Below are positions 32,666 through 36,188 of a stretch of 42,322 nt of DNA, piece after piece. The notes beneath the pieces were generated by a model, which was not told the DNA's origin, searched no databases, and was given only the letters and a program-made list of their open reading frames with translations. Within the stretch, counting starts at the first letter, position 1; the number at the start of each line of letters is the position of its first letter. Origin of the DNA: Gammaproteobacteria bacterium (lineage in GTDB: Bacteria; Pseudomonadota; Gammaproteobacteria; Steroidobacterales; Woeseiaceae); the NCBI GenBank assembly GCA_004357475.1, contig SMWE01000001.1, positions 1 through 42,322 of the forward strand, written 5' to 3'. A program made the translations under genes and the position numbers.

Positions 32666-32716
32666 AACACAGGGCATATTTCCCGGTTTTTTTTCGCCGA
32701 TTCAGAGATAAGGATT

Positions 32717-32839
32717 CGCAGGAGCCCGGGCGACCGGGCGACAAACATTGAAGGCATGTTCAAGAAACATGCCTTCAATGTTTGCTAAGGTTGAATCCAC
32801 CACGTTGGCCAAACGAAGATCGCCCGACGGGCTCCTGCG
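32717..32839. repeat. Nested inverted repeat between convergent genes
   Basis: The inner palindrome (32742-32784) has perfect 19-base arms, CAAACATTGAAGGCATGTT and AACATGCCTTCAATGTTTG, around the loop CAAGA. Outside it, CGCAGGAGCCCG and CGGGCG at 32717-32740 are complementary to the segment at 32821-32839, with a six-base insertion against one base. Left and right arms therefore nest around about 80 bases. The right half lies inside the 3' end of the hydrolase gene and includes its stop codon. It could work as a two-way terminator or be a mobile palindromic element. Confidence 0.75.
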
Positions 32840-33473: not shown

Positions 33474-33690
33474 TCGCTGATTCCGCTGTGATTTGGACCC
33501 GTACGCTGGCGGACAATCCTATCCTCAGTGCCTGAGATTGTCGCCGGGAATCCGAACCGGCCTCGACGCCAACGATAGAAAGCAACTGCGATCGCTGGCC
33601 AGTCAGGCCGATATTGGCGTAAAATTATAACCTTATGCAGCCCCTGTGTGCCCGGGGCGCGAAACACCCGATTTCTGGAAAGTGAAACAC

Positions 33691-34908
33691 ATGTCATCGA
33701 CTATCGAGCTGGAAAACAAGTTTTGCGCGCATAACTACAATCCGCTGCCCGTTGTGCTGTCACGTGGGAATGGCGTATTCGTCTGGGATGAGAACGGCAA
33801 GAAATACCTCGACATGATGAGCGCCTATTCCGCCGTGAGTCATGGGCACGCGAATCCGCGCCTGGTCGAGGTCGTGAAAAAACAGGTCGAAAAACTGACC
33901 ATCGTTTCCCGGGCCTATTACACGGACCAACTCGGCGAATTTCTGAAGCTCGCTTGCGAATTGACCGGGCAGGACATGGCGCTACCGATGAACACTGGCG
34001 CCGAAGCCGTGGAAACCGCAATCAAAGCGGCGCGCAAATGGGGCTACGAGGTCAAGGGTATCGATACGGACAAAGCGGAAATCATTGCCTGCACCGGCAA
34101 TTTCCATGGCCGCACGATAACGATTATCGCAATGTCGGACGAGCCACAATACCAGTATGGTTTTGGTCCTTATCCCGCCGGTTTCAAGCTGGCCCAGTAC
34201 GGCGACGCCGAGGCGCTTGAAAAACTGATCACGCCGCACACAGCAGCGTTTCTTGTTGAACCGATCCAGGGAGAGGGCGGCATCGTCGTGCCGCCGGAGG
34301 GCTACCTGAAGACCTGCCAGGAAATCTGCCGCAAGCACAATGTGCTGCTAATCGCTGACGAGATCCAAACCGGACTGGGTCGTACCGGCAGCCTGCTTGC
34401 CTGTGACCATGAGAAGGTAGTGCCGGATGGGCTGATCCTGGGCAAGGCGCTCGGCGGCGGCATTTTACCGGTTTCGATGTTCCTGTCGAAGCGCGAAGTC
34501 ATGGAAGTGTTCACCCCCGGCGATCATGGCAGTACTTTCGGTGGCAACCCGCTGGCATCCGCTGTCGGCCTGGAAGCACTGAAAATCCTGATCGAAGAAA
34601 AGCTGCCCGAAAGAAGCAAAGAAATGGGCGACTACCTGATGGGAAAATTACATGGACTCAACAGCCCGCTGATTAGCGGAATCAGAGGTCGTGGATTGTT
34701 CGTCGGTATCGAGATTGACCCGGCGCTCGCCAGTGCCAGGGAAATCTGCGAAGCGCTGATGGAGCGCGGATTGCTGAGCAAGGAAACTCATGAGACTGTT
34801 GTGCGGCTCGCGCCACCGCTTATTATCCGCCGCGACGAAATTGACTGGGCGGTTGATCAGATTAGCGAGGTACTTGAGGATATGGATCGGATTCGCCTGG
34901 CCTCATAA
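33691..34908 (+). CDS. rocD: Ornithine aminotransferase
   Basis: A PLP-dependent class III aminotransferase that converts ornithine and 2-oxoglutarate to glutamate-5-semialdehyde and glutamate. The 405-residue protein has HNYNPLPVVLSRGNGVFVWD, YLDMMSAYSAVSHGHANPRL, NTGAEAVETAIKAARKWG, the cofactor aspartate Asp223 in ADEIQTGLGRTG, PLP lysine Lys252 in LGKALGGG and STFGGNPLA. The HNYNP opening and SAVSHGH are ornithine aminotransferase hallmarks. I start at the ATG at 33691 with GGAAAG upstream; an in-frame start at 33646 adds unrelated residues. The product cyclises to pyrroline-5-carboxylate, the substrate of ProC. A TATAAC lies at 33627-33632 but no good -35 was found. Confidence 0.93.
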   Translation: MSSTIELENKFCAHNYNPLPVVLSRGNGVFVWDENGKKYLDMMSAYSAVSHGHANPRLVEVVKKQVEKLTIVSRAYYTDQLGEFLKLACELTGQDMALPMNTGAEAVETAIKAARKWGYEVKGIDTDKAEIIACTGNFHGRTITIIAMSDEPQYQYGFGPYPAGFKLAQYGDAEALEKLITPHTAAFLVEPIQGEGGIVVPPEGYLKTCQEICRKHNVLLIADEIQTGLGRTGSLLACDHEKVVPDGLILGKALGGGILPVSMFLSKREVMEVFTPGDHGSTFGGNPLASAVGLEALKILIEEKLPERSKEMGDYLMGKLHGLNSPLISGIRGRGLFVGIEIDPALASAREICEALMERGLLSKETHETVVRLAPPLIIRRDEIDWAVDQISEVLEDMDRIRLAS

Positions 34909-34948: not shown

Positions 34949-36160
34949 ATGCCTGAGCTAACTGCCATACACATCGGACTACTGGCCCTCACGCTGGTCG
35001 TGGGCGTCGTACTCGGCTCGATTTTCCGGGGTGAGCGCTCCGCGAAAGAAAAGATTGCGATCAATGCCGGCTGGCAGGACCAGCTGGAGTCACAACAGGC
35101 CGAGCTAGATCGTCTCGCCGAGCAGAATAAGGGCCTGATGGAACAAATCAGCCAGTATCAGGCCTCACACAAAGACTCGATTAATCGCGCCAAGGAATTA
35201 TCTGATTCCCTCAAGGAGTCATTTCAGCGGCGCGATGAAATGAAAACCCATATTAATGATTTTCGGAAAAAGCTGGAGCTTACGATCGCGCAGCGCGACA
35301 AGCTCAAAGACGCTGTCGAAAACCGTGAAATTCAGAACAAAAGTTCCACCAGCGAGCTCAAGGAAAAAGATGACAAGATTTTCCATTTAAGCCGCGAACT
35401 GACTAGTTGGCAAAATCGTGTACCGCCGCTGGTTGAAAAATTTCAGGAGCGTGACAGACAGGCACGGGAACTCGAGGAAGAGTTGGTAAAGGCCAGGGCA
35501 AGAATCGAATCGTTCGAAGAAATGGCCCAATCGAATCAGACCCGAATTGAGCCAATTGACGCTGGTACCTTGCCGGATGGCCTGGAGGCGTCGAACGAGC
35601 CGCACTCGGATACGTCAACTCATGCAGTGTCCGTATTGCAGGACCAGATCGACGATGGCGCGGTATCGGAAGAAGGGGGTGAAGCGGTAGAGAATCTGAC
35701 AACATCGGATGATGAGTTTCTCCCCGCAGACAAATTCGTTGATGAAGAAGACAAGATGGCCGATGAGCCTGATGCGCAAACGGAACAAGTGCCAGACTCT
35801 ATAGAGACGTTTACCGCATTGGCTGATGAGCTTCTCGCCGCAGACAGATTCGTTGGCGATGAAGACCGGACGGCCGATGAGCCTGACCCGGGCACGCAAA
35901 AAAGCGAGGATGGTTCGTTGACTGGCGAACCTAAGTCAGGCGACGACAAAGATGATCTGAAGCAGATAAAAGGCGTGGGGCCTGCGATCGAAAAAACACT
36001 TAACGATCTTGGCATCTTCCTTTTCAATCAGTTAGCCGAGATCAGCGAACAGGAAATCGATCGTGTTGCACAGCAGCTGAAGGGGTTTCGCAGCCGTATT
36101 TACCGCGAAGACTGGATCGGACAGGCTCGCGACCTGCATCATCAGAAAACAATAATCTGA
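34949..36160 (+). CDS. Membrane-anchored coiled-coil protein with a C-terminal helix-hairpin-helix domain
   Basis: A 403-residue protein I cannot name. Residues 7-27 form one membrane helix; the rest should face the cytoplasm. A long coiled coil runs from about 45 to 190, rich in Glu, Lys, Gln and Arg. An acidic linker (about 200-330) carries an imperfect 38-residue tandem duplication: DDEFLPADKFVDEEDKMADEP at 254 and ADELLAADRFVGDEDRTADEP at 292. The end (about 335-395) is a helix-hairpin-helix domain, DDLKQIKGVGPAIEKTLNDLGI followed by a region with IDRVAQQLKGFRSRIYREDWIGQA, shown in part. This type of domain is seen at the end of other membrane or NADH-dehydrogenase-associated proteins and may bind DNA or protein. 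It follows rocD by 40 bases. Confidence 0.85.
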   Translation: MPELTAIHIGLLALTLVVGVVLGSIFRGERSAKEKIAINAGWQDQLESQQAELDRLAEQNKGLMEQISQYQASHKDSINRAKELSDSLKESFQRRDEMKTHINDFRKKLELTIAQRDKLKDAVENREIQNKSSTSELKEKDDKIFHLSRELTSWQNRVPPLVEKFQERDRQARELEEELVKARARIESFEEMAQSNQTRIEPIDAGTLPDGLEASNEPHSDTSTHAVSVLQDQIDDGAVSEEGGEAVENLTTSDDEFLPADKFVDEEDKMADEPDAQTEQVPDSIETFTALADELLAADRFVGDEDRTADEPDPGTQKSEDGSLTGEPKSGDDKDDLKQIKGVGPAIEKTLNDLGIFLFNQLAEISEQEIDRVAQQLKGFRSRIYREDWIGQARDLHHQKTII

Positions 36161-36188
36161 CCTGACCGTGTCACTTATGCGGGCTTGC

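Follow-up and report, generated by a model that had tools for sequence, protein, structure and literature searches.

The protein of 403 residues encoded in the last quarter of the window (the whole stretch of 42 322 nt of DNA analysed here) combines a membrane helix, a coiled coil, an acidic spacer and a helix–hairpin–helix (HhH) domain, and we read it, with a probability of about one half, as a bitopic scaffold or tether of the inner membrane that would dock with its tip on a cytoplasmic target and that in most relatives would be coupled to a partner of the peptidoglycan-binding type. We favor this reading because a rod of near-fixed length, a free and charged leash, a nearly frozen tip and a neighbor of the wall-binding type all fit it. 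A search of the openly licensed literature found no prior description of the HhH family or of the HhH/OmpA gene pair, and within that literature both appear to be undescribed. The pair would offer a direct test of how bacteria position cytoplasmic material against the wall. The window comes from an assembly of 2.66 Mb in 192 contigs that is 75.7% complete, and Woeseiaceae-type bacteria, in which the orthologues are found, are known from marine sediments according to excerpts of PMC7082342. The features that the following sections need are these:

33646–34908, + strand: rocD-type ornithine aminotransferase gene, 40 bases upstream of the HhH gene (TIGR01885, 536 bits against a cut-off of 378.4)
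34949–36160, + strand: coding sequence of the HhH protein, 403 aa, open reading frame with ATG start; orthologues in Woeseiaceae-type genomes
34964–35026, + strand: N-terminal transmembrane helix, residues 6–26 (from sequence, the conserved GW..RG.R and a helix in the model)
35030–35533, + strand: coiled-coil rod, residues 28–195 (period 3.50; AlphaFold2 helix; 163–169 residues long in 63 of 74 orthologues)
35534–35602, + strand: conserved post-rod segment of the type QTRIEPVDxxxLxDGLDASNDP, residues 196–218 (family alignment)
35603–35947, + strand: acidic disordered spacer, residues 219–333, with 36 D/E against 6 K/R (alignment, AlphaFold2, dN/dS of 0.775 against the sister)
35708–35782, + strand: repeat copy 1, DDEFLPADKFVDEEDKMADEPDAQT (spacer self-comparison)
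35822–35896, + strand: repeat copy 2, ADELLAADRFVGDEDRTADEPDPGT, residues 292–316 (spacer self-comparison, AlphaFold2)
35948–36148, + strand: C-terminal HhH-type domain, residues 334–400, with hairpin IKGVGP and C-terminal GFRSRIYREDWIGQAR (profile matches, alignments, structure prediction)
36161–36188, + strand: slot occupied by an OmpA-type partner gene in most relatives; 28 bases are left here before the convergent FKBP gene

Membrane helix, rod and conservation across the family

The transmembrane helix at residues 6–26 has no K or R ahead of it and is followed by RGERSAKEK, and the positive-inside rule is an established guide to topology; hence the C-terminal side, and with it the long remainder of the protein, is probably cytoplasmic, as judged from sequence. 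For homologues acting outside the cytoplasm, the openly licensed literature yielded no report either way. Hydrophobic residues between positions 35 and 195 recur with a periodicity peak at 3.50 (power 3.2, against a maximum of 1.85 in 1000 shuffles), the mean periodicity across 66 family members peaks likewise at 3.50, and AlphaFold2 draws a continuous helix from residue 6 to 195 with pLDDT of 86–98 (10-residue means, residues 11–190). As a single straight helix, the rod would be ∼25 nm long. SMC, Rad50, crescentin, ZapB and tropomyosin were rejected as identities, the matches being only to coiled-coil stretches; a scan with family models gave no SMC or Rad50 ATPase head domain, and its coiled-coil matches lay far under the cut-offs.

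We aligned 74 distinct complete orthologues, with identical copies, reading frames cut by contig ends and a remote paralogue dropped. Nearly all of them come from metagenome-assembled genomes, labelled Woeseiaceae, Woeseia, Chromatiales or Gammaproteobacteria/Proteobacteria, and on this ground we take the source of the window to be a gammaproteobacterium of the Woeseiaceae type. The membrane helix, the rod, the post-rod segment and the HhH domain are strongly conserved, except for rod residues ∼121–135, which are not, unlike the remaining rod. Compared with the nearest relative, the HhH domain has the lowest dN/dS (0.032), followed by the post-rod segment (0.17) and the membrane helix with the rod (0.19); the spacer stands at 0.775. 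Rod and HhH domain are constrained, and the spacer is nearly free in sequence, yet acidic. Sequence, conservation and structure prediction thus agree on the layout first proposed for this protein, in which a coiled coil and an acidic spacer hold an HhH domain off the inner membrane on its cytoplasmic side.

The acidic spacer and its repeat

The original prediction had also pointed to a 75-base segment repeated in the spacer with a period of 114 bases. This was borne out: the two copies, offset by 114 bases, agree in 60 of 75 positions, both lie in frame, and the best ungapped self-match of the spacer scored 42.5, far above the values of 300 codon shuffles (mean 9.2, sd 1.2, maximum 16.5). The repeat is not due to chance. 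Tandem Repeats Finder reported nothing at a score of at least 40 in the whole window, which two copies can escape because they are diverged and separated. AlphaFold2 leaves residues 196–333 disordered nearly throughout, and a short predicted helix at 285–301 overlaps the start of copy 2.

Across the family, the spacer measures between 5 and 150 residues (median 43) and contains on average 33% D/E and 3% K/R; acidic residues outnumber basic ones more than twofold in 67 of the 68 spacers of at least 14 residues. With length varying 30-fold and charge kept, the spacer amounts to a clean natural series of a leash. We compared 61 spacers of at least 60 bases with themselves, and self-repeats exceeded the shuffle level in 10, at offsets of 15–117 bases; the units differ among spacers, so that repeats seem to have arisen several times. 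Moreover, the nearest relative (L003/L032, 88% identical) also carries two copies, with a period of 117, and the duplication in the window therefore predates the split from that lineage. Hence the idea that the spacer is still lengthening or shortening suits the family as a whole but not this duplication, and the comparison of repeat number proposed along with it found differing units among the 10 spacers and no change of number in the nearest relative. Five members (L030, L031 and L103–L105) have neither an acidic spacer nor a post-rod segment, and two of these sit in genomes of 1.8–2.0 Mb.

As a separate observation, a hydrophobic motif of the type FxAVF is present in 10 of the 74 spacers (L001, L003–L007 and L013–L016). 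Its pattern, F.[AN][VLIFA][FA], was picked after looking at the spacers, shuffled spacers matched it with a mean of 0.5 and a maximum of 4 of 74, and we regard the motif as a lead only.

The C-terminal HhH-type domain

In the AlphaFold2 model of the full-length protein the C-terminus forms a compact helical domain. Predicted alone with 97 related domains, it reached a pLDDT of 93.4 and a pTM of 0.81 with five helices of at least 4 residues, and the hairpin IKGVGP is placed between helices, of which the preceding one is short. Structure prediction, named beforehand as a check on this domain, thus returned the hairpin, and the contrary outcome, a C-terminus without HhH, did not occur. Residues G342 and G344 are invariant among 73 family members, in which the hairpin is conserved and the basic stretch GFRSRIYR strongly so; among the 97 domain copies, two residues are invariant (G342 and W389) and four nearly so (R383, R386, Q392 and A393).

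By sequence, the domain missed the cut-off of Pfam HHH_5 (PF14520; E 0.0026, 18.6 bits versus 27) and matched the NCBIfam models NF009040 (E 1e-20), NF008966, NF008915, NF008916 and NF045508, all with E ≤1.3e-9. The matched parts of these models are C-terminal stretches of NuoE (E 1e-20), ribosomal proteins S2 and L21 and the phasin PhaH, and we take the models to be alphaproteobacterial. In the alignment of the 97 domains, homology to these C-terminal extensions runs through the whole domain and includes the GRIxRxxWxxQA end, whereas the whole-protein cut-offs of the same models were missed by the HhH protein, as expected. Among PDB sequences the domain matched the 41 kDa subunit of complex I (9wqv_a, E 1.7e-15) and the reaction-centre protein O of Dinoroseobacter (8yy9_O, E 2e-14). 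The NuoE, S2, L21 and PhaH extensions are thus the same domain by sequence (E 1e-20 to 1.3e-9); to our knowledge, neither these carriers nor protein O has a long coiled coil. Of the genomes sampled, 21 of 185 from Gammaproteobacteria and 70 of 299 from across the phylum contain the domain at E ≤1e-6, with the window's own genome counted in both.

Foldseek was run with the full-length model and then, because that search mixed the rod with the domain, with the domain predicted alone, and neither search gave a match under E 0.2. For the domain alone a SAM domain came first (E 0.24), followed by chains of polymerase iota, LEAFY and RadA; the best E value for a RadA/Rad51 N-terminal domain was 0.26 with the full-length model and 0.69 with the domain. 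VIA-align ranked polymerase theta (Z 8.2), RadA (7.8) and C-terminal domains of NusA (7.6–6.5) highest among 180 chains, and Z values up to 8.2 can be reached by chance for a small helical domain. The C-terminal domains of NusA and N-terminal domains of RadA are comparable in fold (Z 6.5–7.8 over 61–69 residues) but only 9–25% identical, with Z within the range of unrelated helical domains. The fold matches do not separate DNA-binding from protein-binding.

An OmpA-type gene beside most orthologues

By clustering, 54 of 73 loci have an OmpA-family gene, which was the next gene on the same strand in all 50 with scorable order. In a profile search, which finds diverged copies too, 58 of 73 loci showed a same-strand OmpA-type gene no more than 400 bases downstream. 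When only the 66 loci whose sequence reaches the FKBP, MsrB or HtpG genes were counted, this search found the downstream gene on the same strand in 52 and not in 14; these 14 include the sister L032, and the window is not among the 66. In 37 of 54 loci no more than 7 bases separate the HhH and OmpA genes, and in 15 of these the two overlap (start codons assigned mechanically), suggesting co-expression. Relatives hold 0–20 OmpA-type matches per genome, from which we estimate chance adjacency at well under 1%. All three partner proteins scanned match OmpA (PF00691) above the cut-off, with E 2.4e-17 to 1.4e-19, and Pfam gave no BON match in these three Woeseiaceae-type partners. The 16 partner proteins that were aligned have invariant D and R positions, presumably those usual for peptidoglycan binding.

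Beside the HhH gene of the window the OmpA-type gene is absent, only 28 bases separating the stop codon from the FKBP gene. The window's own genome, 75.7% complete, has five OmpA matches and no clear orthologue of the partner among them: four span the OmpA domain only and one starts at profile position 125, and one of the five has a different N-terminal part. Since neither the window nor 14 of the 66 spanning loci have the partner alongside, the HhH protein can persist without an adjacent one. A stretch that by eye resembled an OmpA remnant, located downstream of the HhH gene of the sister L032, was rejected, its tblastn E of 0.06 at best being like that of unrelated segments elsewhere.

HhH/OmpA pairing outside the orthologue set

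We scored 84 HhH genes in 79 usable regions around HhH-domain genes for an N-terminal-proximal membrane helix (with no more than 3 hydrophobic segments in all) and for a same-strand OmpA gene no more than 400 bases away. Over all regions, an OmpA neighbor was found for 26 of 40 HhH genes with a membrane helix versus 1 of 44 others (p 2.3e-10). Fifteen regions had been picked partly after their neighbors were noticed and were removed for a stricter count, which gave 14 of 25 with versus 1 of 44 without a membrane helix (Fisher p 3.5e-7), although both p values overstate independence because several loci share one genome or related genomes. The class search contributed 5 of 9 versus 0 of 16, and the phylum search, with loci outside the window's class, 9 of 16 versus 1 of 28. 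In this stricter count 11 of 25 membrane-helix HhH genes have no OmpA neighbor. The lone exception without a scored helix, L187, does begin with a hydrophobic segment at its N-terminus but has four in all, one more than the rule allows; L167 was scored as a membrane case though it resembles ribosomal S2. Three membrane-HhH genes (L164, L166 and L176) adjoin a second HhH gene, which we take to be NuoE-like, and none of the three has an OmpA neighbor. No third gene is common to the membrane-HhH loci, none occurring in more than 4 of them.

In all 27 pairs found beyond the orthologues the OmpA gene precedes the HhH gene, whereas in the orthologues it follows, and the adjacency is therefore not merely an inherited order. 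Most of these partners have an N-terminal hydrophobic segment, and of seven scanned, seven match OmpA and six match BON (PF04972) above the cut-off. The orthologues' partner aligns with the OmpA partners elsewhere with an hhalign E of 4.9e-44 over 246 columns, well beyond the OmpA domain. Judged by sequence, the nearest architecture for the partner is that of ArfA/OmpATb, which shares the combination of BON and OmpA domains seen in six of the seven; NF051434 (ArfA_OmpATb_N) matched one of two partners scanned with E 3.1e-16, but at a score of 59.7, under the family cut-off of 81. We know of no HhH neighbor for ArfA. Excerpts of PMC8909678, on BON-domain proteins under aluminium stress, do not deal with the HhH/OmpA pair.

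Linkers of the 40 membrane-helix HhH genes elsewhere are mostly mixed in charge, with a few basic and only few acidic ones (L191), and a strongly acidic leash is a mark of the window's family. At L149 (4983–6581) the linker before the HhH domain holds 23 K/R and 0 D/E in 60 residues, a histone-H1-like composition and the reverse of the window's acidic spacer; strongly basic, H1-like linkers are also found in L179 and L196. In the partner protein at L163 (6199–8436) bacterial Ig-like repeats separate the BON domain from the OmpA domain, and the periplasmic side therefore varies in length too.

Proposed working of the protein and alternative readings

From the observed anatomy, conservation pattern and gene pairing we propose the following model. 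The N-terminal helix would lie in the inner membrane with its N-terminus outside and the remainder of the protein in the cytoplasm, and a coiled coil of near-fixed length, probably dimeric or of higher order, would project ∼25 nm from the membrane. A disordered leash, negatively charged and differing in length among lineages, would then allow the terminal HhH-type domain to search for and hold its cytoplasmic target. In most relatives, a BON-like/OmpA protein, which may be co-expressed with the HhH protein and contact it, would grip peptidoglycan in the periplasm, and the two together would hold the target in a set position with respect to the wall; the HhH gene of the window has no OmpA-type partner at its side. 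A protein or ribonucleoprotein as target is at least as likely as DNA, and seems somewhat more probable than naked DNA, because of the neutral charge of the domain, the acidic leash, the SAM and NusA matches and the presence of the domain on NuoE, S2, L21 and PhaH; the chromosome is a possible target. Thus, of the tether between chromosome and membrane that the original prediction had entertained, the tether gains from the OmpA-type partner gene, while the charge, the mixed fold matches and the NuoE, S2, L21 and PhaH carriers do not favor the chromosome over a protein target.

A tether specifically for the chromosome, which we consider possible though on the unlikely side, would have the HhH domain bind DNA and anchor the nucleoid to the membrane and, via the OmpA partner, to the cell wall, with the acidic spacer keeping DNA off the leash or tuning binding by competing for the basic hairpin. 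The RadA/Rad51 N-terminal domains and the HhH regions of polymerases theta and iota among the structural matches are consistent with it, as are IKGVGP and the basic GFRSRIYR conserved in the family, R383 and R386 nearly invariant in the 97 domains, and the histone-H1-like linkers of the few other loci. It also has a precedent in RocS of Streptococcus pneumoniae, which, according to excerpts of PMC11500499, acts in chromosome segregation and consists of a membrane-binding helix, a coiled coil and a DNA-binding domain. Membrane anchor and coiled coil are present in the window's protein as well, and by analogy RocS is the nearest functional precedent; we claim no homology, the likeness being one of a membrane-binding end, a coiled coil and an end of the nucleic-acid-binding type. 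RocS differs in the reverse order of its parts, in an amphipathic instead of a membrane-spanning helix and in a domain shown to bind DNA. Against DNA as the target, however, the window's copy of the domain has a net charge of 0, the mean is +1.4 among the 74 family members and −1.4 among the 97 domains drawn from many proteins (which span −9 to +8), and the same domain sits on NuoE, S2, L21 and PhaH models, which are not obviously DNA-binding. Moreover, the Foldseek matches all lie above E 0.2 with a SAM domain as the best for the domain alone, and the VIA Z values stay within reach of chance.

Rather unlikely, in our estimate, is a role in docking of energy-metabolism or membrane complexes, in which complex I, ribosomes, granules or photosynthetic complexes would all be led to one common partner by a shared module, the HhH domain, the present protein being its membrane-anchored version. 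The best sequence matches of the domain, with the C-terminal domains of NuoE, S2, L21 and PhaH and, among PDB chains, with the 41 kDa subunit of complex I and protein O, argue for such a module. Excerpts of PMC12079452 place the protein O gene of Dinoroseobacter shibae between NADH-quinone oxidoreductase genes E and F, and give the protein an N-terminal membrane domain, a long flexible loop and a C-terminal HhH-type domain that is not visible in the map. Protein O (8yy9 chain O) thus resembles the window's protein in the domain itself, the N-terminal membrane part and the long flexible linker, but it has two membrane helices and is bound inside RC-LH1 (PMC12079452, in the same excerpts). Its authors call the functions of these domains obscure in those passages, and the locus in the window and its relatives adjoin hydrolase, rocD, FKBP, MsrB, proC and htpG genes (the last two named from sequence), not nuo genes. 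That the protein is instead a passive filler, a non-specific membrane rod whose gene is kept only by synteny, would suit the almost free evolution of the spacer and the five short forms without it, two of them in small genomes, but is extremely improbable given the dN/dS of 0.032 for the HhH domain and 0.19 for the coil and a match in 11 of 11 same-genus and 24 of 25 other same-family genomes, many of them incomplete and with remote paralogues counted as matches.

Returning to the scaffold or tether docked on a cytoplasmic target, its boldest extension would be a widespread, undescribed trans-envelope tether, made of a peptidoglycan-gripping BON–OmpA protein coupled to a membrane coiled-coil protein, with the nucleoid or a ribosome-sized complex held at the leashed HhH tip of the latter. 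We judge this extension improbable; if it is true, many Gammaproteobacteria and members of at least one other class would have a mechanical link between chromosome and cell wall. Should the pairing mean what it seems to, the orphan domain of complex I, ribosomal proteins and phasins would be the cytoplasmic end of an envelope-anchored pair.

Surroundings of the gene and other observations

The FKBP isomerase and MsrB genes are convergent with the HhH gene; further neighbors in the window are a YGGT gene, a DUF4426 gene and an alpha/beta hydrolase gene, and the outer genes resemble proC and htpG as named from sequence. The ornithine aminotransferase gene was found by clustering in 34 of 73 relatives and lies directly upstream of the HhH gene in 33; in many other relatives a hydrolase gene takes this upstream position instead. 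The slot between the DUF4426 and hydrolase genes (window 32666–32774) holds an HU-like gene, so named from sequence, in 45 of 73 relatives; the ORF list of the window has no HU-like reading frame of at least 90 aa there. The HU-like gene was rejected as a functional partner and left out as evidence because the opposite-strand hydrolase gene separates it from the HhH gene in most maps.

The remote paralogue in the same genome (L002, 1486–2685) encodes 400 aa with 28% identity and has a hydrophobic N-terminus, a long coiled-coil-like part and an HhH domain without a long acidic spacer. It adjoins an ion-channel-like gene (named from sequence), and no OmpA-like reading frame was noticed in the 4 kb examined around it.

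The slot at 32666–32774 also includes part of a palindromic element of ∼123 bases (window 32717–32839), which has perfect 19-base hairpin arms at 32742–32760 and 32766–32784 within 12-base outer arms. The element matches 16 further places in the same genome at 74–86% over at least 83 bases, and therefore belongs to a REP- or MITE-like family.
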